Positions 1,146-29,600 of a DNA stretch of 64,000 nt are shown here, in pieces. The translations under genes were made by a program, and so were the position numbers. The stretch spans positions 1,182,501 to 1,246,500 of the forward strand of contig NZ_PGEN01000001.1 of the NCBI RefSeq assembly GCF_002797435.1. Direction: 5' to 3'. The notes under the pieces were generated by a model, which saw only the letters and a program-made list of their open reading frames with translations, searched no databases and had not been told where the DNA came from. Position 1 is the first letter of the stretch, and the number at the start of each line of letters is the position of its first letter. The DNA comes from Sphingomonas koreensis. GTDB taxonomy: Bacteria > Pseudomonadota > Alphaproteobacteria > Sphingomonadales > Sphingomonadaceae.

Positions 1146-3881
1146 TTACAGCGGTTTGCCTCCGATCTTGTAGGTCAACTGCATGAAGACGCTGCGGCCG
1201 ACGCTGTCGAACCAGGCGGTGTTGTAATAGGGATAGCTCGACCAGGTGTCGTCCTTGACCGGCTTGGTATCGAACAGGTTGCGCACCGTCAGCGATCCGC
1301 GCAGGTGATCGGTGAAGTCGTACTGGACGGTCGCGTTGAACAGGGTGCTGGCCTTGAGGAACGCGTCCTCGTCATAATTGGGCAGCTTGCCCAGCCGCGT
1401 GCCGGAAACGGTGAGCTTCAGCCCGTCATGGTCCCAGCTGATGCTGCCGCTAGACTTGTCGCGCGGCATGTAGAAGCCGCTGTCATACGCCAGCTTGTTC
1501 TCGATCGGATCGCCCGGATATTGCTGATAGGTGTGCTTGAACACGTGGCTGTGCGCCAGCGACAGGGTGAAGTCGCCGAAGCTGGTGGGCAGCGTGCCGC
1601 GGAAAGAGACGTCGATCCCGCTGGTCTTTTCGCGCGAGATATTGATCGGGTTGACGCGGATCGCTTCGATCTTGCCCGCGGAACCGCCGCTCGCAAAACG
1701 CCGGATCCGTGCGAGCGCGTCCACGCAGGTCGGTGAATTGGGGTCGAGCTTACCTCCAACATCGGGGCGGCAATCCGCCTCGTCGCGGGTGATCTGATCG
1801 ACACTCAGGTCGGTGACCTGATTGTCGAGCGTGACGCGGAAATAATCGACCGAGATATGCAGCCGGCGCGATGGCGAGAACACCATGCCAGCGGTCAGCG
1901 ACTTGCCCGTTTCGGGCTTCAGGTTGCGGCTACCCGTGCGGTTGACGACGATGCCGGTCTCATAGTCCTCGCAGTCGCTGACCCCTGCCCCGGGGATATC
2001 CTGCCGACAGGTGGCATAATCGATTACATTGCCTTCGACATTGCCCGGCCCGGTGAACACGTAATGGAGGTCGGGCGCGCGGAAGGCGGTGCCATAGGCG
2101 GCACGGAACAACAGGCTGTTGGTCGGCCGAACCTCGATTCCGCCGTTATAGGTGAACTTGCCGACATTGCGGTCGGCAAAGCCGAACGTGTCGTAGCGCC
2201 CCGCGCCGGTCAGCGTGAGGAAGTTGAGCACCGGGACACGCAATTCGCCGCCGATAGCCGCATGGCTGCGGCTGCCCGAGCCGTCGCTGTCCTTCCAGCT
2301 GAAATAATAGTCGGTCAGCGCCAGCGGATCAGGGCGCAGATTATAGCCCTGCTTGCCATATTCGGCGACCGCCGCGAACCCGACCGGACCCGCGGGCAAC
2401 CGGAACAGTTCACCGTTGGTCAGCGTCGCCTGCGCATTGCTGGTCCAGCTATAGGGGCGATAGACGGTATCGGCGGAGATACCCGCATATTCGGCGGGGG
2501 TCAGCGCCGTGTAGAGCCGTGCCGGATTGGCATTGTAGATCGGATAGCCGCTATCCGCGTCGATGCCGAGCCGATCGCCCAGGAACAGCTTCTGCGCCTT
2601 GCTGTTGATGATCTGCGGCCAGCGCACGATCGATTGATAGCGGCTGTAGTTGAACGACAGCTCGTAATTCCAGGTGCCGCCGACGGTGCCGCGGATCCCC
2701 GGCGTGATGCTGTAGGTGGTCTGCTTGATCCGCTGCATCTGGAAGCCGCCGGTTTCCTCCGGCGTGAACTGGCGCCCCCAATCCTCAATCTGGTCGGTGA
2801 AGCTGTTGTAGAAGTTGTTGTCGGCGCTGCTCGACACCTGTTCGAACGACCATTTCGTCACGTCGTACATCAGGCGTACTTTGCTGATCCCCAGCTGGAA
2901 GTCAGCGAACAGCTTGGCATTGTCCGACAACTCGTACGACATCGTGCCGAAGCTGTTGAATCCCTTGCGGCCGGACACGATCGTTCCATATGCGATCGAG
3001 TCCTGGCTGCCGCAGAAATCGCCATAGCGCGGACGATTATACTGGCGGATGCTGCCCCGGTTGAGTCCCGCCAGTGCGGCGCAAGCGCCCGCCGGCGGCG
3101 TAAGATAATCGACATCCTCGTTGGCGCGATAGAAAGTCCGCCGCGCCAGCGTGTTCACCGGGCTGTCCAGGGTGCTGTCCTGGATGTCGCGATCGAACGC
3201 CCAGAGCGGCCGCTGGTCGAGATATTCGATGCCGCCCGCAATGCTGAAACGGCCGGACGACCAGCCGCCCGTCGCGGTGATCCGATGCGACAGCCCGCCG
3301 CCATGCTCGGTGCGGCCATGGCGATAGTCGAGCGTGATGCCGTCGAGCTTCTCCTTCATCTTGAAGTTGATGACGCCGGCGATCGCATCCGAGCCATAGA
3401 TTGCGGAGGCCGCGCCGCTCAGCACCTCGACGCGCTCGATCAGGCTGACCGGGATGTTCGAGATATCGGTGAAGTTGCTCCGCCCGATATAGGGAAGCGG
3501 GAAATCGGCGATCCGACGGCCGTTGATCAGCACCAGCGTATGGTTCGGCCCCAGCCCGCGCAGATCGACCTGTTGTGCGCCCGGGGTGAAATCGGAACTG
3601 CTGCCCGACTGCGGGCTTTGCGTCTCGCCGCTGTTCTGCGGCAGGGCGGCCAGCATTTCGGGAACGCTGGTATAGCCGTTCGACCGGATCGTATCGGCAT
3701 CGATGACGGTGACCGGGGCCGGACCTTCCTTGATCGTGGGAATGCGCGATCCGATCACGACCACTTCGCGGGGCTGTTCCTCGGCGGGAGCGTCCTGCGC
3801 AAAGGCCGGCGCGGCAAGCGCGCTCGCACAGCAGCCGATGGCCAGATGAACCCGAAACGCGCGGCGCATCGAATATGTCAT
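1146..3881 (-). CDS. TonB-dependent outer-membrane receptor
   Basis: 911-residue TonB-dependent receptor. A signal peptide ends near AFAQDAPA (about residue 29), and VVIGSRIP follows as the segment before the plug. The plug domain contains the typical LRGLGPNHTLVLINGRR and SAIYGSDAIAGVINF stretches (about residues 105-170), followed by a long barrel. Paired cysteines in the barrel (CRQD..DCED and CRPD..TCVD) resemble the peptide-type receptors abundant in sphingomonads. It is divergent from an exported cyanophycinase/isoaspartyl-peptidase fusion, with a 153-bp shared upstream region, so import of peptide or amino-acid products is a reasonable inference. The ligand is not shown by sequence. 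Confidence 0.93.
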   Translation of the reverse strand: MTYSMRRAFRVHLAIGCCASALAAPAFAQDAPAEEQPREVVVIGSRIPTIKEGPAPVTVIDADTIRSNGYTSVPEMLAALPQNSGETQSPQSGSSSDFTPGAQQVDLRGLGPNHTLVLINGRRIADFPLPYIGRSNFTDISNIPVSLIERVEVLSGAASAIYGSDAIAGVINFKMKEKLDGITLDYRHGRTEHGGGLSHRITATGGWSSGRFSIAGGIEYLDQRPLWAFDRDIQDSTLDSPVNTLARRTFYRANEDVDYLTPPAGACAALAGLNRGSIRQYNRPRYGDFCGSQDSIAYGTIVSGRKGFNSFGTMSYELSDNAKLFADFQLGISKVRLMYDVTKWSFEQVSSSADNNFYNSFTDQIEDWGRQFTPEETGGFQMQRIKQTTYSITPGIRGTVGGTWNYELSFNYSRYQSIVRWPQIINSKAQKLFLGDRLGIDADSGYPIYNANPARLYTALTPAEYAGISADTVYRPYSWTSNAQATLTNGELFRLPAGPVGFAAVAEYGKQGYNLRPDPLALTDYYFSWKDSDGSGSRSHAAIGGELRVPVLNFLTLTGAGRYDTFGFADRNVGKFTYNGGIEVRPTNSLLFRAAYGTAFRAPDLHYVFTGPGNVEGNVIDYATCRQDIPGAGVSDCEDYETGIVVNRTGSRNLKPETGKSLTAGMVFSPSRRLHISVDYFRVTLDNQVTDLSVDQITRDEADCRPDVGGKLDPNSPTCVDALARIRRFASGGSAGKIEAIRVNPINISREKTSGIDVSFRGTLPTSFGDFTLSLAHSHVFKHTYQQYPGDPIENKLAYDSGFYMPRDKSSGSISWDHDGLKLTVSGTRLGKLPNYDEDAFLKASTLFNATVQYDFTDHLRGSLTVRNLFDTKPVKDDTWSSYPYYNTAWFDSVGRSVFMQLTYKIGGKPL

Positions 3882-3961
3882 GTCGCTCCCCCTCTTGCAC
3901 GCCAGCCGACCTTCACCCGTCGAGATGACGGATCGGAAAGTTCAACATATCGTCGAAATTG

Positions 3962-4012
3962 GCAATCAAATTATTGCATACGGCCTCTAAACTGTATCAA
4001 ACTGCGTACAAT
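3962..4012 (+). promoter_or_regulatory. Putative operator/promoter between TonB receptor and peptidase fusion
   Basis: The 153-bp divergent region is visibly AT-rich compared with its surroundings. GCAAT-N6-ATTGC (3962-3977) is a short perfect inverted repeat, and TACAAT (4007-4012) could serve as a -10 box for the rightward gene. No convincing -35 box is seen. An Lrp/AsnC-type regulator is encoded two genes down in the same transcript, and such proteins bind AT-rich dyads, so autoregulation here is possible. This is inference. Confidence 0.3.
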
Positions 4013-4034: not shown

Positions 4035-5954
4035 ATGCGGGTATTGCTTCTTCTGGTTATCGCGACCCTCGGATTTGTCCCCGCTGCGGCAGGCGCCAAG
4101 ACCAAGACGTTCGACCGCTATGTCGAGGGCAAGCTTTCCGCGCCGACGCCAGGACAGCGCTCGGGCGGGCTGCTCCTGATGGGTGGCGGCGACCGCAATC
4201 ACGACGCCATGCGCTGGTTCTTCGCCAAGGCCGGGAACGGCCATATCGTCATCCTGCGCGCCTCCTATGCGGGCGAGATCGGTAAGGAGTTCGTGAAGGA
4301 GATCGGCGGGGTCGCCTCGGCCGAGACCTTTGTTTTCCACGATCGCGCCGCCGCCTCCGATCCCCGGATCCTGGCGGCGCTTCGCCGCGCCGACGGCATC
4401 TTCCTCGCCGGCGGCGATCAGGCAAATTATGTGCGCTACTGGAAGGGTACGGAGGTCGCGCGCCTGCTCACCGCGCATGTCGCGGCAGGCAAGCCGCTCG
4501 CCGGCACCAGCGCGGGTCTCGCGATGCTGGGCGAAGCGCTCTACGGGGCAAGCGACGGCGGCAGCATCAAGTCGCCCGAGGCACTCGCCGATCCGTTCGG
4601 CCCGGCGAACACCATCGAACGCGACTTCCTCGACATCGCACTGCTCAAGGGCGTGGTGACCGATACGCATTTCAAGGAGCGCGACCGGCTCGGCCGCCTC
4701 TTCGCCTTTGTCGCCAAGGCCCAGCTTGGGCGCCCGTCGGACTCGCCGGCGATGATCGGCGTCGGAGTGGATGAAAGCGCCGCAGTCGCGGTCGAGGCCG
4801 ACGGCCGCGGACGCGTCTATGCGATCGAGCCCGATGGCGGCGCCTGGATCGTCGATGGATCGGCGCTGCGCGTGGCGCCGTCTCGCGGCGTGCTCGTCGC
4901 GGATCGGATCAAGGTCACGGTCATGAACACCGCATCCGTCCTCCATCTGCCCTCGGGCCGGGTCGATAATCCCGCCTCTGTGCGCCGCTATGCGGCGGCC
5001 GGCGGCGAGATTTCGGAAATGCCGCGCTGGTCGCTCGCGATCCATGGCGGTGCCGGCGTCATCGAGCGCGGCACGCTGACCCCGGCAAAGGAAGCCGCCT
5101 ATCGGGCCGGCCTTGCCGAAGCGCTGCGCGCCGGCGGTGCGGTCCTCGATCGCGGCGGCCCGGCGCTCGATGCGGTCGCCGCGGCTGTCCGCATCCTGGA
5201 GGACAATCCCCTGTTCAATGCCGGTCGCGGCGCGGTGTTCACCGCGGAGGGCCGCAACGAACTCGACGCGGCGATCATGGACGGTGCCACGCAAAAGGCG
5301 GGTGCCGTCGCCGGAGTCACCCGAACGCGGCATCCGATCGACCTTGCCCGGGCAGTGATGGACAAGACCCGCCATGTGATGCTGGCCAGAGACGGCGCCG
5401 ATCGCTTCTCGATCGAACAGGGTCTCGAGCAGGTCGCCCCCGAATGGTTCCGGACCGAAGAGCGCTGGCAGCAATTGCAGGCGTGGCGCAACAAGCAGGC
5501 GGGCGCGGTCGATCGATCCCATTTGTTCGGAACAGTAGGCGCGGTGGCGCTCGACGCCGACGGTAACCTCGCCGCCGCCACTTCGACCGGCGGCATGACC
5601 GGAAAGCGCTGGGGCCGGGTCGGCGATTCCCCGATCATCGGCGCCGGTACGTATGCGAAGAATGGCCAGTGCGCGGTATCGGCGACCGGGTCCGGGGAGT
5701 ATTTCATTCGTGAGAGCGCGGCGCGCCAGGTCTGCGATCGCGTCGCCTGGAACGGCGAGACCCTTGCAAACGCCGCGCAGGCGACGATCATGGCGGTAGG
5801 ATCGATCGGAGGCGACGGAGGGCTGATCGCAATGGGTTCGAATGGCAAGCCGGCGTTCGCGATCAATGATCTCGGCATGTATCGCGGCCGGATCGGGCCG
5901 GGGAGCGAGCCGCAAACGGCGATCTTCGCCGACGAGCGTTTCCCGGAACGCTGA
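4035..5954 (+). CDS. Exported cyanophycinase-isoaspartyl peptidase fusion
   Basis: 639-residue two-enzyme protein. Residues 1-20 form a signal peptide. Residues about 42-320 are a cyanophycinase-like S51 peptidase: GGDQ (126-129), the nucleophile elbow GTSAG with Ser159, and the DTHF motif with His212. Residues about 331-639 are an isoaspartyl peptidase/type 2 asparaginase (Ntn hydrolase): AIHGGAG (336-341), FNAGRGAVF, GTVGAVALD with the predicted self-processing Thr500, then TSTGG and GSGEYFIR. Cyanophycinases release beta-Asp-Arg dipeptides, and isoaspartyl peptidases split those to Asp and Arg, so the fusion would carry out both steps outside the cytoplasm. The ATG at 4035 is chosen because it starts the signal peptide; the frame is open far upstream but lies antisense to the receptor gene. 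The stop overlaps the next start by one base (TGATG). Confidence 0.9.
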   Translation: MRVLLLLVIATLGFVPAAAGAKTKTFDRYVEGKLSAPTPGQRSGGLLLMGGGDRNHDAMRWFFAKAGNGHIVILRASYAGEIGKEFVKEIGGVASAETFVFHDRAAASDPRILAALRRADGIFLAGGDQANYVRYWKGTEVARLLTAHVAAGKPLAGTSAGLAMLGEALYGASDGGSIKSPEALADPFGPANTIERDFLDIALLKGVVTDTHFKERDRLGRLFAFVAKAQLGRPSDSPAMIGVGVDESAAVAVEADGRGRVYAIEPDGGAWIVDGSALRVAPSRGVLVADRIKVTVMNTASVLHLPSGRVDNPASVRRYAAAGGEISEMPRWSLAIHGGAGVIERGTLTPAKEAAYRAGLAEALRAGGAVLDRGGPALDAVAAAVRILEDNPLFNAGRGAVFTAEGRNELDAAIMDGATQKAGAVAGVTRTRHPIDLARAVMDKTRHVMLARDGADRFSIEQGLEQVAPEWFRTEERWQQLQAWRNKQAGAVDRSHLFGTVGAVALDADGNLAAATSTGGMTGKRWGRVGDSPIIGAGTYAKNGQCAVSATGSGEYFIRESAARQVCDRVAWNGETLANAAQATIMAVGSIGGDGGLIAMGSNGKPAFAINDLGMYRGRIGPGSEPQTAIFADERFPER

Positions 5955-6397
5955 TGTCGGGCCAGCCGAACCTCGACGAGGTCGACGTCCGGCTCCTCGG
6001 CCTGTTGCGCGACGATGCGCGCCAGCCGATCGCCCAGCTTGCCAAGGAACTCGGCATTTCCCGCGGCCAGCTCTACTCGCGCCTCGCCCGCCTTGAGGAG
6101 AGCGGAGTCGTCGACGGATATACCGTCAGGCTTGGCGACGCCTTTGCCCGCAGCCGCCTGCGCGCGCATGTCATGATCAAGACCGCGCCGCGCTTCCGCC
6201 GCGAGCTCGAATCGCTTCTTTCGGAGATCGTCCAGGTCTCGGCGATCCATGCGATCAGCGGTGAGTTCGATTATATCGCGATGCTGGAAGCCGAGGACGG
6301 GGTGGAACTGAACCGGCTCGTCGACGAGATCGGGATGCTGGACGGTGTCGAGTTCACGCGCAGTTCGGTCATTCTGGCGACCAAGCTCGAACGGTGA
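5954..6397 (+). CDS. Lrp/AsnC-family transcriptional regulator
   Basis: 147 residues. The N-terminal winged HTH has the family's typical opening (LDEVDVRLLGLLRDDAR..IAQLAKELGISR) and the C-terminal half is an RAM-type ligand-binding fold (VQVSAIHAISGEFDYIAML). These regulators usually sense amino acids and act as dimers or octamers. Its start codon overlaps the stop of the peptidase fusion, so the two are probably translationally coupled. Asp, Arg or a related amino acid is a plausible effector, given the upstream enzyme. It is convergent with cueR, 18 bp away. Confidence 0.93.
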   Translation: MSGQPNLDEVDVRLLGLLRDDARQPIAQLAKELGISRGQLYSRLARLEESGVVDGYTVRLGDAFARSRLRAHVMIKTAPRFRRELESLLSEIVQVSAIHAISGEFDYIAMLEAEDGVELNRLVDEIGMLDGVEFTRSSVILATKLER

Positions 6398-6415: not shown

Positions 6416-6913
6416 TCAATGCGCGGACGCCTTGCGCGGCTGAGGGCCTTTCCGTCGGGCGGATTGCTCGCCGGGATCGCCGAAGCGATGAGGTTCCCGG
6501 GGTTGCAGGTCCGGCAAGCCGCACTCGCCCTCCGCCAGCCCTTCGATGATCGGGCAATCGGGGCGGTCGTCCCCGTGGCAGTGATTCGCCAGCGTCTCGA
6601 GCGTGCGAACCATCGCCTCGATTTCCGTAACCTTGTCCTTGAGCCGCTCGACATGCTCAAGCGCGATCGCTTTCACGTCGGCGCTGGCCCGGCTGCGGTC
6701 CGACCACAGCCCGAGGAGGTCACCGATCTGCTCGACCGCAAAGCCCAGGTCGCGCGCGCGTCGGATGAATCGCAATCGATGCACGTCAGCATCGTCATAG
6801 TCGCGATACCCCGACTCCTGGCGCAACGGCTGGGGGATGAGCCCGGTTTGCTCGTAATAGCGGATCATCTTGGCCGAGACGCCCGACAGTTTAGCGGCGC
6901 GGCCGATGTTCAA
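6416..6913 (-). CDS. cueR: CueR-type Cu(I)-responsive MerR regulator
   Basis: 165-residue MerR-family activator. The HTH is at the N-terminus ([21 protein letters not shown]), followed by a dimerisation helix and the metal loop [12 protein letters not shown], with Cys112 and Cys120 at the spacing and numbering of known CueR proteins. This predicts Cu(I)/Ag(I) sensing. The C-terminal tail after about residue 135 is longer than usual and is Arg/Lys-rich. Its start overlaps the copA stop by 4 bp, so it is the second gene of a copA-cueR transcript and would be autoregulated through the CueR box upstream of copA. Confidence 0.95.
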
Positions 6914-9444
6914 CGCGCTTCTCCTTGATCATGCCGGCTGGCGGCGATCGCCGGCCGGAAGGCCTTCAGCCGGAGCGCGTTGGTTAGCACGAAGATGCTC
7001 GAAAGCGCCATCGCGCCCGCCGCGAAGATCGGTGACAGGAGTGCGCCGTTGAGCGGATAGAGCGCACCCGCGGCGACCGGGATCAGCGCCACATTGTATC
7101 CGAAGGCCCAGAACAGGTTCTCCCTGATGTTGCGGATCGTCGCCTTGGACAGGGCGATCGCATTGACCACGCCCCTGAGGTCCCCGGACATCAGCACGAC
7201 ATCGGCGGACTCGATCGCGACATCGGTACCGGTACCGATCGCAAGCCCGACATCAGCCGAAGCGAGCGCCGGCGCGTCGTTGATGCCGTCTCCGACGAAG
7301 GCGATTTTGCGGTCGGCGGCGCGCAGGCGGTGGAGCGCGGCGACCTTGCCGCCGGGAAGAACCTCGCCGATCACCTCGTCGATCCCGAGCGTGCGCGCCA
7401 CGGCATCGGCCGTCGCCTGATTGTCGCCCGTGATCATCGCGACCTTGAGCCCGAGATCGTGCAGCGCCCGAATCGCCTCGGGCGTCGTCTCCCTGATCGG
7501 GTCGGCGACCGCGATGATCGCCGCGAGGCTGCCGTCGATCGCCGCATAGAGCGGCGTCCGCCCCAGCGCGCCCAGTTCGGCTGCCTTGCCAGCGAAGGCG
7601 GACACGTCATGACCGAGCTTCGCCATGAAGCGATCGGCGCCGACCTGCACCGCCCGTCCCCCGACCTGCGCCGACACGCCATATCCGGGTGTCGCCTCGA
7701 ACGCCTCGGCCGGCGGCACCGCAAGACCGCGCGCCCTCGCCGCAGCGACGATCGCCCCGGCAATGGGGTGCTCGGACCGCGCTTCGACCGCGGCGACCAG
7801 CGCGAGCGCCGTATCGCGCTCGAACCCCTCGGCAGGCTCGAGGTCGGTCAGCTCCGGACGCCCCTTGGTCAGGGTTCCGGTCTTGTCGAGCGCGACGACG
7901 CTGACGTCGCGCAGCGTCTGCAGCGCCTCGCCCTTGCGGAACAAGACGCCGAGTTCCGCCGCACGCCCGGTTCCGACCATGATCGATGTGGGCGTCGCGA
8001 GCCCCATGGCGCACGGGCAGGCGATGATGAGAACCGCGACCGCATTGACCAGCGCGAAGGTCAGCGCCGGATCGGGACCGAAGACGAGCCAGATCGCAAA
8101 GGTCAGCGCCGCGACACCCATCACCACGGGCACGAACCAGGCGGTGACCTTGTCGACCATCGCCTGGATCGGAAGCTTCGACCCCTGCGCCTGTTCGACC
8201 ATGCGGATGATCTGAGCGAGAACCGTATCCGCGCCGACCTTTGTCGCGCGGAAGGTGAAGGCGCCGGTGGTGTTGATCGTGCCGCCGACCACGGCAGCGC
8301 CCGCCGCCTTGGCGACCGGAACCGGTTCGCCGGTGATCATCGATTCATCGACATAGGAGCTGCCCTCGACGACGTCGCCATCGACCGGCACGCGCTCGCC
8401 CGGACGCACCTCGACCGCATCGCCCGCAACGACATCGGCCAGCGCGACGTCGAGAACCGCGCCGTCGCGCACGACGCGCGCGGTCTTGGCCTGGAGCCCG
8501 GCAAGACGCTTGATCGCCTCCGACGTCCGCCCCTTTGCCCTGGCCTCGAGATAGCGGCCGAGCAGGATCAGGGCGACGATCACCGCCGCCGCCTCATAAT
8601 AGACATTGGCGGTACCGGCCGGCAGAACCCCCGGGGCGAAGGTGGCGACGAGCGAATAGCCCCAGGCGGCGCTGGTGCCGAGCGCGACGAGCGAATTCAT
8701 GTCGGGCGTGCCGCGCAGGATCGCGGGAACGCCCTTGCGGAAGAAGCGCAATCCCGGCCCGAACAGCACGAGCGTGGTGAGCACGAACTGGATCAGCCAG
8801 CTCGCCTGCATCCCGATCGTCGCCATCACCCAATCATGAACCCCGGGGATGAGGTGCGACCCCATTTCGAGCACGAACACCGGCAAGGCCAGCGCCGCCG
8901 CCAGGACGAGCGAGCCGCGAAGGCCCCGCAGCTCGGCATCGCGCGCAGCAGCTTCGCGATCGGGCGCTGTACGATCGGTTTCGAGGCGCCGTGGCGTGTA
9001 GCCCGCACGACGGACCGCGGCCTCCAGATCCCCGAGCGTGGCAATCCCGCTGCGATAGCGGATGCTGGCGCGTTCGGTCGCCAGGTTGACGCTTGCCGCC
9101 GTGACCCCCGGTACGCCGGCAAGCGCCTTTTCGACATGGCCAACGCACGACGCGCAGGTCATCCCCTCGACGCCGAGTTCGGTCTCGATCTCCGGCACCT
9201 GATATCCGGCATGTTCGATCGCCTGAATCACCGCCTGCGGATCCGGCGCGCCCGCAAAGGTGACGTCGGCCCTTTCCGTCGCCAGATTGACGCTGACGGC
9301 GACGACCCCGGGCAGGCGAGCGACCGCCTTTTCGATGTGACCGACGCACGAGGCACAGGTCATGCCGGCGACGGCGACGCTCATCGGCGCCGTCCCGCTC
9401 GCGGGAGCGACCGACTTCCTGTTCAATTCCATGACGTTGGACAT
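6910..9444 (-). CDS. copA: Copper-exporting P1B-type ATPase
   Basis: 844-residue Cu(I) efflux ATPase of the inner membrane. Two N-terminal heavy-metal-binding domains carry MTCASC (Cys30/Cys33 and Cys97/Cys100). The transmembrane copper site is CPC at 476-478, the phosphorylated Asp is D520 in DKTGTL, TGEP (about 371) is the actuator loop, and SEHP marks the nucleotide-binding domain. The C-terminal hinge ([10 protein letters not shown]) is present, and the length is normal for a two-HMA CopA. It is transcribed from a CueR-type promoter immediately upstream and is followed by cueR with a 4-bp overlap. Confidence 0.97.
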
Positions 9445-9898: not shown

Positions 9899-11128
9899 TC
9901 AATCCGGTCGTAGCGGCGGCATCGCCAATTCGATCAACTCGCGCGCCTGCTGGGCGAACCAGCCGCCCGCCGCGGGCGCCACGACGCCGCGCTCCGGATC
10001 ACCGGGGCCGCCGGTACCGCGATGGCATTGACCATCGGATTCGCCCGGCACCTTGATCCACAGGAACGCATCCACATAGGCATTGCCGGTATCGAGCGTC
10101 GGACGCCGGCCCAGCCCGCGGCCGGGGGGATTGCACCACACCTCCGCATCGCGATACCGGCCCGCCTTGGGCTGCCATGAACCGAGACCGTTGCGGCTGG
10201 TGTCGATCACCGCATGTTTCTGGGCCGAAGGGTCCCGCCGCAACCTCGCGGCATCGAACAACCGGTCATAGACCCGGTCGGTCCGCCGCCAGCTTGAGAC
10301 ATCGTCGAAACGAGCCGGATGATACTGGCTGGGGCATTGCCGCGGATCGAGCCTGGCGCGAGTCACGAGCGCGATACAGTCGCTGATCCAGCGCGCGTAG
10401 TGCGAGAGACGCCTGTCGTCTTCATAGTTGGAGACATTGAGGAAGAAGCCTGCGGTCTTGTTGACGTCCGCCTGCACCAACCGGCTGGCCGCCTCGGCAG
10501 GCGAAAGCCAGCTGCTGGTCGTCCCGTCGAGATAGACGCGCGCGCGGGGCCGCGAGGACAGGATGTCGACCGCACCGCGCAACTGGGCAAAGCGCTCCGC
10601 GGTCGCGCCGTCCTTCTCCCTGCCCGCGGGCCGGCAGGCCTCGAGTTCCCCCGACAGCGTGCGATGCCATGGGATGACGCCCAGGCCATCGGGTTCGAGG
10701 ATGACGATGGCGTCGCGCTCACCGATGCCGGCAGCAAAGCCGCGGATCCAGTCGAGATAGGCCGCGCTGTTCGCCGCGCCCCCTGCGGAATAGAGCGCGC
10801 AATCGCGGAAGGGGATATTGTACGCGACGAGCACGGGCAGCTTTCCTTCGGCCGCGGCGCGATCGACGAGTTCGCGCACCTTCGCCTCGACCGCGGCCGG
10901 CGTTCCGCCGGTGAACCAGGTCGCGGACGGGAACCTGGCAAGCAGCAGCGCGTCGCGCCGCGCCTCCCCTTCCAGGCGCGCAGCCGCATCGATGGTGGTG
11001 CTGCGCGAATCGACGAAAAGCCTCGCCTCCTGCGCCGTAACCGGGGATATGAGCCCAAGCGCCGCGACAATGGCAATGGCGGATCGCGCAATACCTGGCA
11101 GGTCGCGGTGGACGCGCGCTTCGGCCAT
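9899..11128 (-). CDS. Glycoside hydrolase family 6 (beta-1,4-glucanase)
   Basis: 409-residue exported GH6 enzyme. The signal peptide covers about residues 1-32 (cleavage near TAQEA). Both classical GH6 signatures are present: VAYNIPFRDCALYSAGG (101-117) with the candidate catalytic Asp109, and VILEPDGLG (142-150) with Asp147. Family members are inverting cellobiohydrolases or endoglucanases acting on beta-1,4-glucan. No carbohydrate-binding module is visible, so soluble or short glucans are likelier substrates than crystalline cellulose. It is the last gene of a GH3 -> TonB receptor -> GH6 run, 89 bp after the receptor with a strong hairpin in between. GAGGAGA precedes the ATG. Confidence 0.93.
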   Translation of the reverse strand: MAEARVHRDLPGIARSAIAIVAALGLISPVTAQEARLFVDSRSTTIDAAARLEGEARRDALLLARFPSATWFTGGTPAAVEAKVRELVDRAAAEGKLPVLVAYNIPFRDCALYSAGGAANSAAYLDWIRGFAAGIGERDAIVILEPDGLGVIPWHRTLSGELEACRPAGREKDGATAERFAQLRGAVDILSSRPRARVYLDGTTSSWLSPAEAASRLVQADVNKTAGFFLNVSNYEDDRRLSHYARWISDCIALVTRARLDPRQCPSQYHPARFDDVSSWRRTDRVYDRLFDAARLRRDPSAQKHAVIDTSRNGLGSWQPKAGRYRDAEVWCNPPGRGLGRRPTLDTGNAYVDAFLWIKVPGESDGQCHRGTGGPGDPERGVVAPAAGGWFAQQARELIELAMPPLRPD

Positions 11129-11181
11129 GGATTTCTCCTCTCATTCCGCCTTCGACAGGCTGCCGGACAAACCCGGACAAC

Positions 11182-11209
11182 CGCCTGCGCCGGCGAACCG
11201 GCGCAGGCG
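11182..11209 (-). terminator. Strong hairpin between TonB receptor and GH6 gene
   Basis: A perfect 12-bp inverted repeat (11182-11193 with 11198-11209) closes a CGAA tetraloop. No U-run follows in the minus-strand transcript, so it is more likely an mRNA-stabilising or partial-attenuation element inside the operon than a complete intrinsic terminator. Confidence 0.55.
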
Positions 11210-11217
11210 CCCCCTTA

Positions 11218-13830
11218 TCAGAATGTGATCCGCGCCCGCAGGCCGTAGCTGCGCGCATCGTTGAGGAAGCGGATGTTGAGCGACGAACCGACCAGCGCCT
11301 TTTGCGACACCTCCTCGTCGAGGAAGTTGCTCGCCCAGGCCTCGAGCCGGAAATTGTCGATCGTGTAGCCGATCCCGAGATTGACCGTGGTGTACCCCTT
11401 TTGCCGGTCGGGGAAGCCGGCCTGCATCGCCGTCTGGCGCGCGCCGTTGAGGAAGACGATGTCGTCCTCGTTGAACTGGCTGAGATAATAGGACGAGCGG
11501 TAGTTGATCAGCGCCTGCCAATCGAGACGGCCCGGCCCCGCATCGAACCACTGCGACAGCCGGGCGCTGAGGTTCATCTTCGACGCGAGCGGCAGGCGAT
11601 TGCCCACCAGGCTGATCAGCGGCGAGTTTCCACCGGCGCTGTGATCCTGTGCGCGCGCATCCGCCACCGTGCCGCGGGTGATCCTGGTATCGAGATAGGC
11701 GGCATTGAGATCGAGCCCGAAATGCCCCGGCAGCTTGAGGCGAAGCTCGGCCTCGGCCCCGTAGATGCGCGATGCGCCGATATTGCGGTTGACCAGCGAA
11801 TAGCCGTTGCAGACCGGCGGCGTCTGAGTGCTGTCGAGATTGATGCAGGTCAGGTCCTGGAAGACCTGATTGGTGTAATCATAGTAGAAACCGGTGAGGT
11901 TGAAGACCGATCGCCGCCCGAACAGGTCGAAGCTGTTGCGGCTGCCGACCTCATAGACGAGCAGCTTTTCCGGGCTGAAGGTCTCAGGGATCGGCGATGC
12001 GTTGAAGCTGTCGTTGAACCCGCCCGATTTATGCGCGGTCGAGACCTTCGCATAGACCATGTTGTCGTCGGTGATGTCGAATTCGACACCCGCGCGCCAG
12101 TCGATGAAATCGAACTTCGAGCTGCCGGACTGCTGGCCGGGGATCGTCAGATTGGCGTAGCTGAAGCTCCCGCTGGCGGGGCAGTCGACGAAGCCATTGT
12201 CGATATCCGGCCGGTCGATGCAGGTTCCATTGGGGTTCGTGCCGTTCGCGATCGAACCGATCTGGGCGATCAGCGTGTCGCGCAGGCCGGGTGTCTTGAC
12301 CCCCTCGATCAGGAACTGCGCCATGCCCTGCCGGGTGGTGATGCCGCTGACGTTGAAATTGGGCCGGTCGAGCAAGGCCGGACGGAAACCCTCGGTGCCG
12401 ATGCGCGTCGCGAAGCAGCAGGCGTCCCCTGCCCCGCCCAGCGTCAACGCCCAGTTGCCGCCGATGCCGTAACGCGACTTCTTTTCCTCGGTATAGCGGA
12501 TACCGGCAAGGACACGCAGCCGCGCGGTCACGTCGAAGGTGCCGTCGGCGTAGAAGGCGAAGCTCTCACCATCCACATCGGGCATGGTGAACTCGGTGCC
12601 CGAATAGCAGCAATAGCCGCGATCGGCGAGCGCGAGATAGCCGACCGCCTGGTCTTCCTTGAAGTAGAAGCCGCCGACGTTCCAGCGCAGGCGCTGGTCC
12701 TCATCGGCGAACAGGCGCGCCTCATAGACCTGGCTCTTCGAACGGGTCTGCCAGAAATTGCCGGAGAAATTGTCGTACTGGACGGCGGAGAGATCGCGTC
12801 CCGGATAGTCGATGCCGTCGCTGCTGGCGTTGACCTGGTAGAAATCGACCGAGCGGTAGCTGCCCGTCACTTCGGCCGAGAAGCTACCGAAATCGTAGCT
12901 GATCTTGCCCTGCACGCCCCACAGCTCATTCTCCATCTCACCCTGCAGGCCGCGATAGACGACGCGCTTGAGATCGAGCTGATCGGGGCGCAGGCCGCTT
13001 CCCATCACGGCGCTGAAGATGTTCGCGCCGGGATAGCCGGTCCCGGTTTCCTTGCCATAATCGCCGACGATCGAGACCGTCAGGCGATCGCTCGGCTCCC
13101 ACAGCAGCGAGAGGCGGCCGGCGTAATTCTCCTCGAGCCCGGCGGGCTTGAGATCCTTTGCGGGCGCGCCGGTCGAGACATTCTTGAAGCCATAGTCGCG
13201 GTTGACGTAATAGCCCGCCGCACGCAGCGCGAACGTCTCGCCGAGCGGGATGTTGATCGCGCCTTCCGCCGCATAGGAGGACCGGTTGGAGACCTCGGCC
13301 TGCGCATAGCCGCCATATTGGCCGAGGCGCGGCTTCGCGGTGATGATGTTGAGCGTGCCGGCGAGCGCGTTGCGCCCGTAGAGGGTGCCCTGGGGCCCCT
13401 TGTTCACCTCGACCCGTTCGAGATCGTAGAACATCAGGCCGAGGCCGCGCGGCCGCGGGATATAGGTGCCGTTGAGATGCGGTGCGGCACCCGGATCGCC
13501 GAGCTCGGTGCTGTTCGCCGATCCCACGCCGCGAATGAAGATTTCGACATTGCCTTCCTGGTTGGCGATGCTGAGGCCCGGCACCGCGGCCTGGAGCTGG
13601 CGGAGCTCGGCGATGCCGTCCTGGCGCAGCTGGTCGGCGCTGAACGCCTGTACGACGCCCGAGACGTCCTGCAGATTCTCCTCGCGGCGATTGGCCGTGA
13701 CGACGACGGTCTCGTCGCTTTCCTCGACCGCCGGCCCGGCGGCTGGCCGGTCCTGCGCATAGGCGGGCATCGCCGCCGCGCTGGAAAGCAGCATCAGCAG
13801 CGCCGAGCGCGTGAAAATTCCCCTGTTCAT
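11218..13830 (-). CDS. TonB-dependent receptor of the beta-glucan locus
   Basis: 870-residue outer-membrane receptor. The signal peptide ends at about residue 26 (PAYAQ), EETVVVTANRREENLQDV is the TonB-box/plug entry, the plug runs to about residue 160, and the barrel ends in RARITF with the terminal Phe needed for assembly. It starts 19 bp after the GH3 stop and is followed by GH6, so it is probably the uptake channel for gluco-oligosaccharides released or trimmed by those enzymes. The exact ligand is inferred from context only. Confidence 0.93.
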   Translation of the reverse strand: MNRGIFTRSALLMLLSSAAAMPAYAQDRPAAGPAVEESDETVVVTANRREENLQDVSGVVQAFSADQLRQDGIAELRQLQAAVPGLSIANQEGNVEIFIRGVGSANSTELGDPGAAPHLNGTYIPRPRGLGLMFYDLERVEVNKGPQGTLYGRNALAGTLNIITAKPRLGQYGGYAQAEVSNRSSYAAEGAINIPLGETFALRAAGYYVNRDYGFKNVSTGAPAKDLKPAGLEENYAGRLSLLWEPSDRLTVSIVGDYGKETGTGYPGANIFSAVMGSGLRPDQLDLKRVVYRGLQGEMENELWGVQGKISYDFGSFSAEVTGSYRSVDFYQVNASSDGIDYPGRDLSAVQYDNFSGNFWQTRSKSQVYEARLFADEDQRLRWNVGGFYFKEDQAVGYLALADRGYCCYSGTEFTMPDVDGESFAFYADGTFDVTARLRVLAGIRYTEEKKSRYGIGGNWALTLGGAGDACCFATRIGTEGFRPALLDRPNFNVSGITTRQGMAQFLIEGVKTPGLRDTLIAQIGSIANGTNPNGTCIDRPDIDNGFVDCPASGSFSYANLTIPGQQSGSSKFDFIDWRAGVEFDITDDNMVYAKVSTAHKSGGFNDSFNASPIPETFSPEKLLVYEVGSRNSFDLFGRRSVFNLTGFYYDYTNQVFQDLTCINLDSTQTPPVCNGYSLVNRNIGASRIYGAEAELRLKLPGHFGLDLNAAYLDTRITRGTVADARAQDHSAGGNSPLISLVGNRLPLASKMNLSARLSQWFDAGPGRLDWQALINYRSSYYLSQFNEDDIVFLNGARQTAMQAGFPDRQKGYTTVNLGIGYTIDNFRLEAWASNFLDEEVSQKALVGSSLNIRFLNDARSYGLRARITF

Positions 13831-13849
13831 GTCATCCTCCCTTTTCGAT

Positions 13850-16354
13850 TCATTTGCATGCGAGTTGCGGGCCCGAAGGCGATGTGATGCGCGCCGAGGA
13901 CAGAGTGAGGTCGAGGCTCCCCGCGGTCGCGATGGACAGCGGCGTCTCGACGCGCGTCATGTCGACGCCCGCCTTCTCGAAGCAGCGAAGCGGTACGGCC
14001 ACGCGTGTCCACTTCCCGGTCTTCGCCGCTTCGCCGAGAATGCCGCGCACCGGGAATCCGCCCGCGCAATCCGTCCCGCAGCGCATCAACAGGCTCACCT
14101 CGGCAGACGGCGCGGCATTGACCTTCAGCTCGAGTTCGAGCGCCAGATCACCATTGGCCTGGCGGGAAAGATCGACTGGCACGTCCTGCACGATGGCGGC
14201 GACGGCCTGGCCGGCCCCGGTCCAGCGGATCCGCAACGAATCCTCCTGCGCCGAACGATCGGCGGGGCGCGCATCGATCAGCTCGGGTCCGGGATTGGCC
14301 GCGAGCTCGCCCGGCCGCCCGAGGAGCAGGCGCCGACCTCCGCCCGGTTTGCCGGCGGTGAACAGGATGCCTGTTTCGGCCGCCGCAGCGGTCGCGCGCG
14401 TCTCGGGCAGCGCGGCGAGGTCGCCACGGTCCGCGACCTTCAGCCCGAAGCCGTAGGGGAACAGCGGATCATAGTTGCTGTCGCCGATATTGACGGTGGT
14501 CTGGTCGCTCGATCGCGGCCAGCTATAGCCGAGCTTGCCGCTGAAATCGGACTTGCCGAACAGGACATCCGCCACCCCGCCGCCCTCCGAACCGGGGAGC
14601 CATGCCGCGACGAAGGCGTCCGAGGCATTGAGAAAGGGATTGACCCACATCGCCCGCCCCGAGAGGAACACCGCGACGGTGGGAACGCCCGCGGTCTTCA
14701 GGGTGCGCAACAAGGCCAGGGTCTTCGCATCGTCATAGCCGACGTCGGGGCGATCCCCCTGGAACTCCGCATAGGGCTCCTCGCCAAACACGACGATCGC
14801 GGCATCGGGCTTGGCTGAATAGCCGCCCTCGACGGAAAGCGTTGCGGTGCCGCCCGCGGCCTTGACCGTCGCTTCGATGCCTTCCCAGATCGACTGGGCA
14901 TTGGGGAAATCGGATCGCTGCGTTCCCGTACCCTGCCAGCTCAGCGTCCAGCCGCCGGTCTGCTTGGTCAGATTGTCGGCACCGTCGCCGGCGACCAGGA
15001 TGCGGCCGCCCGGCTTGAGCGGGAGCAGGCCATTGGCGTTCTTGAGCAGCACCAGCGACTGCCGCACCGCTTCGCGCGCCAGCGCGCGATGTTCGGCACT
15101 GCCGAGAAGCTCATAACGGCCCGCATAGGGACGCGACGAAGGCTTGCCTGCCTCGAACAGGCCAGCGCGGATCTTGACCCGCAGGATGCGCCGGACCGCG
15201 TCGTCGAGCCGGTCGATCGGCAAGGTGCCGTCGCGCGCCTGGCCCAGCGTCGCCTCGTACAGCGCCTTCCAACTGTCGGGAGCCATGTACATGTCGAGCC
15301 CGGCGATCGCCGATTGCGGGCAATTCGTCGCCGTGCATCCCGCGACCTGACCGTGCCCGTTCCAGTCGCCGACCAGAAAGCCGTCGAAGTTCCAGCGCTG
15401 TTTGACGACCCCGGTGAGCAGCGACTTGTTGCCGTGCATCTTGGCGCCGTTCCAGCCAGAGAAGCTGACCATGACCGATTGGACGCCTGCATCGAGCGCG
15501 GGCAGATAGGGCGGGCTGAACAGGTCGCGCAGCCCCGCCTCGCCGATTTCCGTATCGCCCTGATCCTTGCCGTTCCTGGTTCCGCCGTCGCCCAGGAAAT
15601 GCTTCGCCGTGGCGATGATATGCGGGCCGCGCAGCCAGTCCTTGTCGCCGATCTTCCCTTGCAGCCCTTCGATGAGGGGCGCCGCATATGCCGTCGCGAT
15701 TTCGGGTGTTTCGCCGAACCCTTCATAGGTGCGGCCCCATCGGTCGTCGCGGACCACCGCCAATGTGGGTGCGAAGGTCCAGTCGAGTCCGGTGACCCGC
15801 ATCTCGATCGCGGTCGCTTCACCGATACGGCGGATCAGATCGGGATTACGCGCAGCGCCGAGCCCGATATTGTGCGGAAACAGCGTGGCGCCGACGACAT
15901 TGTTGTGCCCGTGCACCGCATCGCTGCCCCAGATGACCGGGATGCGCGGCAGTGCGCCATTGGGCTGCATCGACGCGGCATAGAAGGCATCGGCTGCGGC
16001 CAGCCAATCCCTGGGCGGGGCGTTGTAGCGCCCGCCCGGATCCGAATTGCCGCCATTCAGCACGGAACCCAGATGGTAGCGATGGACATCGGCGGGCGTG
16101 ACGCTCGCGATATCCGCCTGGATGATCTGCCCCACCTTCTGCTCAAGCGACATCTTCGCGAGCAGATCGGCGACCCGCAATTCGACCGCGGGGTCGAGCG
16201 GAACCGTCGGGCGACGCTCGGGCCACATTGCCGGATGCGCCTGCGCCGCATCGTCCCGCGCGGACGCCGTTGCAGCCATGACGACGGGCAAGCTCGCCAG
16301 CATCGCCGACGAAAGAAGCCTGAACATAAGCTTGGGCTTACCCGTAGGCACCAT
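13850..16354 (-). CDS. Glycoside hydrolase family 3 beta-glucosidase
   Basis: 834-residue exported GH3 enzyme that releases glucose from beta-gluco-oligosaccharides by a retaining mechanism. The signal peptide lies within residues 1-32; the Met at residue 10 is an alternative start that would give a tighter signal sequence. KHFLGDGGT (251-259) and VGDWNGHGQ, with the predicted nucleophile Asp330, mark the TIM-barrel domain, and the alpha/beta sandwich follows. The last ~200 residues form an extra C-terminal beta domain, as in exo-1,3/1,4-glucanase-type GH3s. It is the first gene of the operon, divergent from the LacI gene, with two operators in the gap. Confidence 0.94.
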   Translation of the reverse strand: MVPTGKPKLMFRLLSSAMLASLPVVMAATASARDDAAQAHPAMWPERRPTVPLDPAVELRVADLLAKMSLEQKVGQIIQADIASVTPADVHRYHLGSVLNGGNSDPGGRYNAPPRDWLAAADAFYAASMQPNGALPRIPVIWGSDAVHGHNNVVGATLFPHNIGLGAARNPDLIRRIGEATAIEMRVTGLDWTFAPTLAVVRDDRWGRTYEGFGETPEIATAYAAPLIEGLQGKIGDKDWLRGPHIIATAKHFLGDGGTRNGKDQGDTEIGEAGLRDLFSPPYLPALDAGVQSVMVSFSGWNGAKMHGNKSLLTGVVKQRWNFDGFLVGDWNGHGQVAGCTATNCPQSAIAGLDMYMAPDSWKALYEATLGQARDGTLPIDRLDDAVRRILRVKIRAGLFEAGKPSSRPYAGRYELLGSAEHRALAREAVRQSLVLLKNANGLLPLKPGGRILVAGDGADNLTKQTGGWTLSWQGTGTQRSDFPNAQSIWEGIEATVKAAGGTATLSVEGGYSAKPDAAIVVFGEEPYAEFQGDRPDVGYDDAKTLALLRTLKTAGVPTVAVFLSGRAMWVNPFLNASDAFVAAWLPGSEGGGVADVLFGKSDFSGKLGYSWPRSSDQTTVNIGDSNYDPLFPYGFGLKVADRGDLAALPETRATAAAAETGILFTAGKPGGGRRLLLGRPGELAANPGPELIDARPADRSAQEDSLRIRWTGAGQAVAAIVQDVPVDLSRQANGDLALELELKVNAAPSAEVSLLMRCGTDCAGGFPVRGILGEAAKTGKWTRVAVPLRCFEKAGVDMTRVETPLSIATAGSLDLTLSSARITSPSGPQLACK

Positions 16355-26344: not shown

Positions 26345-26623
26345 TTACTCGGCCTTCGCCTGCTCCCACACCGTCTCGAACTCGGCGGCAGAGATGGTCA
26401 TCGGCTCGAACTCGGGATCAGCCGCGATCTCGTCCAACGGGGGCAATGGTTCTATGCCGAGCTTCGTGCTACCGGAGCGTCCCTCGCGATCTGCAAAGTC
26501 CATCCGGCCATCGGCATAGACCTCGACCTTGCGGACCTCCCACAGCTCGGGATTGAGTTCGCTGTAGAGCAGCACCGGGGTGTCATCCAAGGAGTGCAGC
26601 CACTTCACCTTGACGTATTTCAT
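26345..26623 (-). CDS. DUF6881 protein, candidate immunity protein
   Basis: 92 residues, small and acidic, beginning MKYVKVKWLHSLDDTPVLLY and ending EFETVWEQAKAE. This matches the DUF6881 pattern I recall. Its start overlaps the stop of the giant YD-repeat gene by 4 bp, the usual arrangement of an immunity gene following a polymorphic toxin. Immunity function is inferred from position and size; no mechanism can be read from sequence. Confidence 0.8.
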   Translation of the reverse strand: MKYVKVKWLHSLDDTPVLLYSELNPELWEVRKVEVYADGRMDFADREGRSGSTKLGIEPLPPLDEIAADPEFEPMTISAAEFETVWEQAKAE

Positions 26624-29600
26624 TTCACTGGAACCCTTCCACTGCTGATCAGCCTGCCCGTGAGATCAAGCGGCACTTCGTTGGGAATAACATAGACGCC
26701 AGCGCGGCCCTGCACCGCTCCTAGCCCCGTCGCGTCAATCTCAACATAGTGCGTGAAACGATTACCTTGGAATGGCTGGCCGAGGAACTCCCTCGACAAC
26801 TGGGCGGGTGTCTTCGTGCCGGGGATGATGTCAGAGACATACTGCCCGTTACCGTATCGGACATCCTTCGTGCCGACACGCCACAGGGACGGATTGAGCG
26901 AGCCGCTCTCGGCGATGCCCGCTGCGCCCGCCTCGTTGGTGTAGTGATACAGGACTTGCCGCCCGCCGCTGCCGCCAACGCCTGCTGTCTCTGCGGCAAC
27001 GACCACATCGCCAGCAATGCCAGGTGAGCGAAGCCGGCCAATCGCGCCGGCTTTGGTGGCCGGAGCAAAGACGGTAGCAACCTCAAGACCTGCGACCGAG
27101 AAGTTACGGGTACCACGTTCGATCTGCGCCACGTTGCCGCTGGTCACGTCCGAGAGGGCACCGCTGAAATGCGTTTTGATATCGCTCACCATACCGTTCA
27201 CGGCGTACTGGCCCGTTGCGACGACTTGAGCCATAATATTGTTGGCAATCGACCCGTGGGATCCAAACAGCGTGTTCACAGCGAAGTTGGCTGTGCCGCC
27301 CAACGACTTGATAAGAAATTGTCCCCGTGCTCCGGTGACACCGCGAACCACCGCCGCAGCTCGCGGCATGCCACTGGCTTCCAGAATTCTTGATATTGTC
27401 CCACTACGCTGTGCGTTGATGTTGACCTGGTTCGCCGAGTTGATCGCGCTGGATATTTTGCTCGACAGGAATTCCCGAACATATCTGTTCGTATCAAAGC
27501 TCGCGATACGCGATATGTTGCTCGCAACCCGCCGCCCCGTGATGACGATATCCTGCCCGTCAAACGAGCCGTTTCCGTCCGCATCGAGCTGTTGACCCGC
27601 CCAGTCCCTCGCGCCCGTGACCGGATCGACAACCCACGTCTTGATCGTACCAGTGACCCAGTCTCCCCAGCTTTCGGAAGCATGGGCTGCGAATGAGCTA
27701 CGGGAAAAGATTTCACTTCCGGGGAAGCTGGCCGCCTTGAGGCGTAGCTTACCGGCCAGCCCAATCTCATAGCCGGAGTTTTGTCCGTCGCCGCCGCGGC
27801 TCACCAGCTCTGGCGCCCCCCGCAACTCACCCGCCACGGCGCCGCCGATAGTTGAGCCGATGACATCGGGAAGCGCAGCCAGAATGTTGTCTCCGAAGCT
27901 GCTACCAGTGAGCAGGCTACGTGCCGCCGAACCCGCGATTGCGCCCGCGGTACTGGCGACTAACTGCTTGCTCATGTTGGCAGCATTGATGCCGCCATCC
28001 CAATCGACCCCGAGCGTCTTGCCGAGGCCACCGACCACGCCGCCGACCGCCGCACCGACCGCGACGCCGGCAAAGTCGAACTTGCTCTGAAGGCCGGTAG
28101 CGATCCCAACGCCCTGAGTCAGTGCGTTGCCGAGTGCCCCGCGCACCGCGCCGCTCAGGAACGGGCTACCTGCGATGTCCTTGAGCGCCGAAATCGCGCC
28201 CAGCCCGCTACCGATCCCTGCTCCGATCGCGGATAGCCCAACCCCCTTCCAGTTGAACCCGCCCTGCTGGATGCCGGTCGCCAGTCCAAATGCCTGACTC
28301 GCCACGCTGCCAACGGCAGCCGCGCCAATCGTGCCCGCGATACCGGCCGCGCTCGTTGCGCCGATCGAAAGCCCGGCCCCCGCCGTGGCTATAGCAGTGC
28401 CCGAACCCACAGCAGACCCCAGGCCGAGGTTGGCGAACAGCTTGGCCGCTGGGACACGCAATGCGACCGTCACCGCCACGGCGATTGCCACCATCAGGAT
28501 TTGCCCGAACACGCCGCATTTGTTGCCCTTCTTGGGCTTTTGCGGGGTTGGGGTGGTGGGGTTGGTGTCGCCGAGGGTTTCGGCGGGGTCGTAGGGGGTG
28601 AAGGTCGTCGCATTATGCTGCGAGCGGCTGACACCGGAGGGGATGTGGAGTGTCTGGCCCGTGACCAGGCTGGTGCCGGCGGACAGGCCGTTGGCCTCGG
28701 CCAGCTTGTACCACAGGCTGGAATCGCCCCACATCTGTGCGGCGAGGCCCTCGAGCGTCTCGCCGCCACGCACGGTGTAGCTCCCGCCCGCGCCGCCCTG
28801 GCTGTGGCTGGTGATGCCCTCGTAGAACTGGTCGAAATCGGCGTAGGAGCTGCCGTAGCTCGCCCCGTTGTGGAACGCGCCCGACCCTTGCGTCAGCTCG
28901 CGCCCGTCGACCGAGGACTGGTAGTCGGTGTTGAGCGTGCCGTTGTTGCCGACATAGCCCATCTGCTTGCCGTTGAAACGGTACCAGATCTCCTGCGGGT
29001 CCCCGGTGGCGGCATAGTCCTGCTCGTTGCGGCGGAGCACCTGGCCGTTGACATCGTTATGGTAGGTCACCTTGCGCTGGCGGCCGTCGACGATCTCTGC
29101 CCTGTCGAGCACGCCCGACCCATTGCGGTGGTAGGTGGTGGTGCCGCTGGTGGTGCCGCTGAGCGTGGTCGAGGCGAGCACTGCGCCGTCGCGCCACTCA
29201 TAATAGTTGTTGACGGTCGAGCTCGACCACGGGGTGTTGGTGCGCGATACGCTGGTGAAGCTGCGCACCACGGCACCCAGCGCATAGTCGCCGAGGGTCG
29301 CGTCGTTATAGTCGCTGTCGTAGTAGTTGGTGGTCGTGCTGGTCTGAGCGATGCCGCCGTCGCGTTGGACGACGGTCTCTGAGCTGACCTGGCCCTTGTC
29401 GTTGTAGATGAGGGTCCGGTCGTAAATCGCCTGCCCCAGTGCGTTGGGATCGTTATTCGGGTCGGTTGGCTCGATCGACCAATCGACCTGATGGGTGAGC
29501 CGGCCGAGCTGATCGTACCAGTAGCTGGCCTTGAGCGCGCCGGCGCCGGGCAGCGGCCCATCCGGCCTGACCGTGCCATCGCCGTTGTCGATATAGCCCG

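Follow-up and report, generated by a model that had tools for sequence, protein, structure and literature searches.

A cyanophycinase–isoaspartyl peptidase fusion, probably exported, as a putative two-step depolymerase in a conserved TonB receptor module of Sphingomonas koreensis

A locus of Sphingomonas koreensis raises the question of whether a single exported protein can take cyanophycin apart in two steps. Cyanobacteria, like certain other bacteria, store fixed nitrogen as cyanophycin, and the means by which Gram-negative neighbours gain access to this store are, to our knowledge, poorly understood. The window analysed here is a 64,000-nt stretch of the S. koreensis genome (GCF_002797435.1, NZ_PGEN01000001.1, positions 1,182,501-1,246,500, forward strand), in which one open reading frame joins a cyanophycinase-like half of family S51 to an isoaspartyl peptidase (IaaA) half, beside genes for a TonB-dependent receptor and an Lrp-type regulator. 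The protein is read below as a two-step depolymerase of beta-aspartyl polymers, probably exported and most likely acting on cyanophycin, within a conserved TonB receptor module. Taken in full, with export, cyanophycin as substrate, receptor uptake and Lrp control together, we consider this reading likely, with appreciable room for doubt.

The two active sites and the N-terminus of the fusion

Pfam profiles place Peptidase_S51 (PF03575) at residues 109-222 of the fusion (43.5 bits, cut-off 23.9) and Asparaginase_2 (PF01112) at residues 332-622 (348.2 bits, cut-off 27), and the fusion is the sole match to either profile in its own genome (E <= 0.001). The solved structures closest by sequence are the cyanophycinases 7uqv, 3en0 and 7uqw for the first half (41-50 bits) and EcAIII (2zak) for the second (269 bits). 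A scan of genome contigs with an S51 alignment yielded 449 relatives, and the analysis retained the 80 best; because these loci were chosen by likeness to the query, they are biased to close relatives. Both halves lie in one open frame in 71 of the 80 loci (two are truncated at a contig end; L063 is counted as fused since both halves precede its first stop), which rules out a chance read-through, and the S51 half stands alone in the other nine.

The motifs of the S51 half, GGDQ ending at Q129, GTSAG with Ser159 and DTHF with His212, lie at the positions that the initial annotation had given, as does Thr500 of the second half. In the alignment with 3en0, S159, H212 and E247 coincide with the CphB triad Ser132-His174-Glu201, the numbering of Glu201 being consistent with the alignment. 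Among 35 aligned fusions, S159 and H212 are invariant and E247 is present in at least 90%. The critical pocket residues of CphB are Gln101, Asp172, Gln173, Arg178, Arg180 and Arg183, and the extracellular CphE retains them except for Gln173, which is replaced by Thr, according to excerpts of PMC3235067. The counterparts in the window protein are Q129, D210, T211, R216, R218 and R221, which is the CphE pattern, including Thr for Gln173. His174 and Arg178 of CphB are required to bind the substrate dimer (excerpt of PMC12661447), and the counterparts of both are retained. GGDQ, GTSAG and a D[T/S]HFxxRxRxGRL block with its three arginines are present in all 84 related loci of a set made up of L041-L046 and L054-L133 (86) minus L057 and L078, which were absent from the ORF clusters, with the window excluded; the variable position is Thr in 79 and Ser in five, and four classical two-gene cyanophycinases of the genus or order (L049, L050, L051 and L053) carry DQHF. 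As judged from its residues, the S51 half is cyanophycinase-like and bears the CphE signature.

The second half is 48% identical to EcAIII, with a TM score of 0.95. Seven residues, N395, T500, T518, R528, D531, T551 and G552, align with EcAIII counterparts and are invariant in the 35 fusions; their roles are presumably those of the counterparts. Six of them (all but N395) supply the Thr nucleophile, the Asp-binding Arg/Asp and the oxyanion Thr-Gly that characterize PF01112. The fusion scores 295.3 bits against the beta-aspartyl-peptidase equivalog PRK10226 (NF007589), below its cut-off of 567. Both active-site sets are complete, as had been proposed.

The fusion begins with a signal-peptide-like stretch (Table 1). 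In the related loci, 82 S51 genes could be judged, after L043 (broken frame) and L131 (contig end) were set aside from the 84, and 80 of these have a 10-residue N-terminal stretch with a mean hydropathy of at least 2.0, whereas none of the 82 reaches this threshold in any of five internal stretches. A laxer threshold was passed by 43 of 84 proteins in one internal stretch, and the stricter count is the one reported. An AxA motif follows the hydrophobic stretch in 77 of the 82, and the three classical DQHF cyanophycinases with a judgeable N-terminus have no hydrophobic leader. The fusion is therefore probably exported, in agreement with the signal peptide that was initially assigned to it.

The receptor, its regulators and the source of the substrate

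The receptor gene starts 153 bases upstream of the fusion on the opposite strand, and the ATG of the Lrp-type gene shares one base with the TGA of the fusion (TGATG); both annotated neighbours are real. A divergent receptor homologue occupies the same place in 76 of the 80 loci and in 75 of the 76 with at least 3 kb upstream. An Lrp gene lies downstream in 32 loci, homologues of FecR and FecI are present in 40, neither occurs in eight, and no locus of the 80 has both; accordingly, of the initially proposed triad of receptor, fusion and Lrp, the receptor is general and the Lrp gene belongs to a subset. Pfam scans of representatives identify FecR in L098, L133 and L046, a sigma-70 family factor in L095, and an STN domain in the receptor of L101, the one FecR-type receptor scanned. 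When 87 loci were clustered by likeness, no further gene cluster occurred in more than 16. In L046, FecR and FecI homologues (L046:10854-13396) stand behind the Lrp gene and are followed by part of another receptor homologue; no other locus was seen to have both kinds of regulator. Of the NCBI families, LysM matches the window Lrp protein best (85.7 bits, cut-off 180), which points weakly to a basic amino acid as its ligand.

When 19 intergenic regions from Lrp-type loci are aligned, a stretch of about 61 bp proves conserved, and this block contains three AT-rich elements. Scored with a matrix from 17 ungapped regions (leave-one-out, with near relatives of each scored locus staying in training; L043, with its broken frames, was excluded from this scoring and from alignments A2 and A3), 33 of 37 Lrp-type loci have their locus-wide best site on the + strand of the intergenic region, L042 among them at only 11.2. 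The four exceptions are L041, L045 and L046, where the best site is on the other strand (6.8-12.1), and L131, at a contig end. The 40 FecI/FecR-type loci reach a top score of 9.2, and their best site is intergenic in two, both with negative scores; in loci with neither regulator it is intergenic in five of nine, where L071 has a negative score and L067 is cut by its contig before any Lrp gene could be seen. The Lrp-type regulator is presumed to bind this block. The block is also retained in the intergenic regions of L058, L063 and L090, which have no Lrp gene downstream and whose regulator may lie elsewhere. Within the window block, positions 3962-3977 form a perfect inverted repeat, GCAAT-N6-ATTGC, which as such is absent from the other Lrp-type intergenic regions.

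No match to the cyanophycin synthetase family TIGR02068 exceeds the cut-off in the S. koreensis genome (best 80.7 bits against 850; none at E <= 1e-50), so degradation genes occur here without a recognisable synthetase, as is expected of a scavenging locus. A synthetase at E <= 1e-50 is likewise lacking in 16 of the 17 genomes with the module or parts of it, this one included, which favours scavenging. G464 (locus L147) combines a separate S51/IaaA pair with a synthetase, alone among the 17.

Table 1. Features of the fusion locus, with positions in the window
Feature	Position	Strand	Evidence
Cyanophycinase-isoaspartyl peptidase fusion, putatively exported	4035..5954	+	Open reading frame, ATG start, 639 aa
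Signal-peptide-like N-terminus, aa 1-21	4035..4097	+	Possible cleavage after AGA, by eye; 10-residue mean hydropathy 3.3
S51 cyanophycinase-like half	4161..5021	+	Q129, S159, D210, T211, H212, R216, R218, R221, E247
Isoaspartyl peptidase / type 2 asparaginase half (Ntn hydrolase)	5025..5951	+	Nucleophile Thr500 at 5532-5534
TonB-dependent receptor (plug and barrel), divergent from fusion	1146..3881	-	Plug 87.1 bits, TonB_dep_Rec_b-barrel 111.2 bits
Lrp/AsnC-type regulator	5954..6397	+	Pfam AsnC_trans_reg 48.5 bits
Operator-like 61-bp block, divergent intergenic region	3940..4000	+	Conserved block; matrix score 22.2; window outside training set

Other genes of the window, all on the - strand, include a CueR-type copper regulator above its NCBI cut-off, which adjoins a copper-translocating P-type ATPase (6416-9444). 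At 9899-16354, Pfam identifies a cluster of a GH6 glycoside hydrolase, a GH3 enzyme bearing an Exop_C domain and another TonB receptor, which resembles a beta-glucan utilization locus in its own right. A 3407-aa reading frame at 26620-36843 is polymorphic-toxin-like: it carries LysM, 14 stretches of RHS repeats and, at the C-terminus, a Tox-ART-HYD1 ADP-ribosyltransferase domain. Autotransporter proteins of 1343 and 1126 aa are encoded at 45132-49163 and 60558-63938, the second with passenger repeats.

Distribution and histories of the two halves

By record titles, the 80 loci come mostly from Sphingomonadales and Lysobacteraceae, together with some metagenome-assembled genomes placed no lower than phylum and one from Hyphomonadaceae (L071, S51 alone). 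Among 100 genomes, the S. koreensis genome and its relatives, both halves are covered by a single match in G000, G043 and G005 and by a match with a frame break in G048; G007 has pieces at contig ends, and in G045, G046 and G054 only the S51 half is present, adjoining the receptor. In wider surveys, at least eight of 297 genomes of the order and at least three of 397 of the phylum have a match across both halves among the matches listed, where weak S51-only cases may be missed. In L043, the locus of G048, the S51 frame is broken near residue 65 and the receptor frame is broken too, by decay or sequencing error.

The two halves are adjacent separate genes in eight genomes (G328, G188, G243, G464, G393, G346, G192 and G435), where each has its own hydrophobic leader, as judged by eye. 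A TonB receptor homologue is near seven of these eight pairs; the exception is L144, where the contig begins about 1.1 kb from the S51 gene. These leader-bearing pairs indicate what the fusion brings together: two enzymes, both apparently exported, next to a receptor.

The tree of the S51 halves (51 rows) contains a supported clade (96/98) of the seven separate pairs used together with L041, L042, L045, L046 and L152; no fused half from Lysobacteraceae belongs to it, and of the fused halves from Sphingomonadales only L041 and L042 do. The IaaA tree (68 rows) is divided differently: L041, L042, L152 and the separate pair of G393 fall within a Sphingomonadales-type clade (100/100), and the other six separate pairs within a Lysobacteraceae-type clade (100/100). 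The grouping of Sphingomonadales and Lysobacteraceae fused IaaA halves apart from the rest is rejected by the approximately unbiased (AU) test (p-AU 6.8e-46, 46 rows), for a group that was defined after the first tree was seen, and the Lysobacteraceae fusions alone as one clade are not rejected (p 0.061). The halves thus differ in history, with joining, splitting or exchange more than once, in a number and order that neither tree yields. Such repeated joining or exchange supports the two enzymes acting in sequence.

A broader reading joins these observations: a TonB-linked polymer-utilization module built on a self-cleaving two-step depolymerase, whose halves were repeatedly joined, split or exchanged while the receptor was kept, whose control head is either Lrp with its own operator or FecI/FecR surface signalling, and which would serve as a general route for Sphingomonadales and Lysobacteraceae to the cyanophycin of others. 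Towards this broader reading we lean only slightly.

A proposed pathway, its rivals and known systems

From the computed architecture, residues, folds, gene neighbourhood and conserved block, the following pathway may be proposed. The CphE-type S51 half, a serine peptidase, would take beta-Asp-Arg (or beta-Asp-Lys) units off cyanophycin or its fragments. Self-cleavage before Thr500 would separate an S51-alpha chain, ending at residue 499, from a beta chain of residues 500-639, and the isoaspartyl peptidase half would cut the released units to free Asp and Arg. Soluble fragments may be imported across the outer membrane by the divergent receptor, and the downstream Lrp-type protein may act on the intervening operator-like block to govern both transcription units. 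Since the cell appears to make no cyanophycin itself, the host would be a scavenger of that of other microbes. Receptor, regulator and fusion together suggest a toolkit for scavenging the nitrogen of other microbes, which would provide a directly testable conversion of the polymer to free Asp and Arg by one protein, a candidate class of TonB substrate (an amino-acid polymer) and, in the receptor-enzyme-regulator set, a marker of cyanophycin use in genomes and metagenomes.

Several points weigh against this pathway. The S51 half scores 86.5 bits on the NCBI cyanophycinase (CphB) equivalog TIGR02069, below the cut-off of 126.6, and five scanned relatives of the window type also fall below it (83.9-108.7 bits), so the window protein is not classed as CphB; for two classical CphB proteins the score is 263-283 bits, above the cut-off. 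The half is about 25% identical to solved cyanophycinases, and its likeness to CphE is drawn from the published residue list. Additionally, the IaaA half appears dispensable, being absent from nine of the 80 loci; L046, of the same genus and outside the 80, has both an Lrp gene and FecI/FecR homologues; and G464 is the one genome of the 17 with a cyanophycin synthetase (1122 bits). No inner-membrane carrier and no Arg or Asp uptake gene is identified in the window unit, which makes the term "self-contained", first applied to it, too strong.

The low TIGR02069 scores fit an alternative in which the same architecture serves a different natural beta-aspartyl substrate (iso-Asp peptides of aged proteins, beta-Asp-Lys polymers or iso-Asp natural products), with S51 as a broader iso-Asp exopeptidase. 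The "pseudo-CphB" 7uqv is among the top structural matches of the S51 half, IaaA enzymes show promiscuity even where their genes cluster with those for cyanophycin (parts of PMC10206079), and S51 relatives such as MccG cleave other iso-Asp compounds (part of PMC9239234). However, every pocket residue listed for CphE is kept, the three arginines are universal in the related loci, and cyanophycinase exceeds PepE-type folds by about 10 Z units in the structural comparison, which leaves this alternative unlikely, if the most serious of the three considered. The much higher score of the IaaA half (348 against 43.5 bits), which is 71-87% identical to that of the other Sphingomonadales fusions scanned, could instead mean that the module is mainly an exported scavenger of asparagine or iso-Asp nitrogen, with an S51 half that is vestigial or changed in function. 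The invariant or nearly invariant S51 catalytic residues argue against this, as do the nine loci with S51 and no IaaA, all nine beside the same receptor, although their count is favoured by the collection of loci by S51; we regard this second alternative as very improbable. That the fusion is an artefact of annotation or assembly, or a local functionless accident, for which nothing speaks beyond the broken frames of L043, is refuted by its presence in independent genomes of two orders of different classes and deserves practically no credence.

The preferred reading, an exported two-step depolymerase of cyanophycin, has several precedents. A fused cyanophycinase-isoaspartyl peptidase was not found in a literature search of titles and abstract beginnings, with most subscription journals outside its coverage, so that its absence from print is not established. 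The initial claim of novelty holds to that extent for the fused protein and fails for its setting, as the receptor-cyanophycinase neighbourhood, cyanophycinase-iaaA scavenging clusters and CphE are already known. One precedent comes from Citromicrobium, itself a member of the Sphingomonadales. In Citromicrobium sp. JLT1363, Tang et al. 2012 describe a TonB transporter beside a cyanophycinase gene and propose cyanophycin as its substrate; the excerpts of that paper mention no isoaspartyl half, Lrp, FecI/FecR heads or operator (PMC3400609). Cyanophycinase-iaaA clusters in genomes without cphA1 bring the same two steps into one locus, and, unlike the window module, are presented without the words fusion, fused, TonB or secreted in the main text (PMC10206079).

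Among the individual enzymes, CphB of Synechocystis (3en0, 7uqw) is intracellular, and the four classical copies of the genus or order carry DQHF where the window protein carries DTHF; classical copies lack a leader (three judgeable) and exceed the NCBI cut-off (two scanned), and the window protein is the opposite on both counts. IaaA/EcAIII (2zak) shares the Thr nucleophile and the Asp-binding residues with the fusion, whose corresponding half stands behind an S51 half, is probably exported and remains under the PRK10226 cut-off (295 against 567). CphE of Pseudomonas alcaligenes DIP1 and P. anguilliseptica BI, likened here by its description in excerpts of PMC3235067, is the product of a 1260-bp gene with no joined isoaspartyl peptidase described there, whereas the window S51 half is fused. 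CphE is exported, as the window protein probably is; both proteins are of S51 type and combine a Ser-His-Glu triad with Gln, Asp, three Arg and a Thr that replaces Gln173 of CphB.
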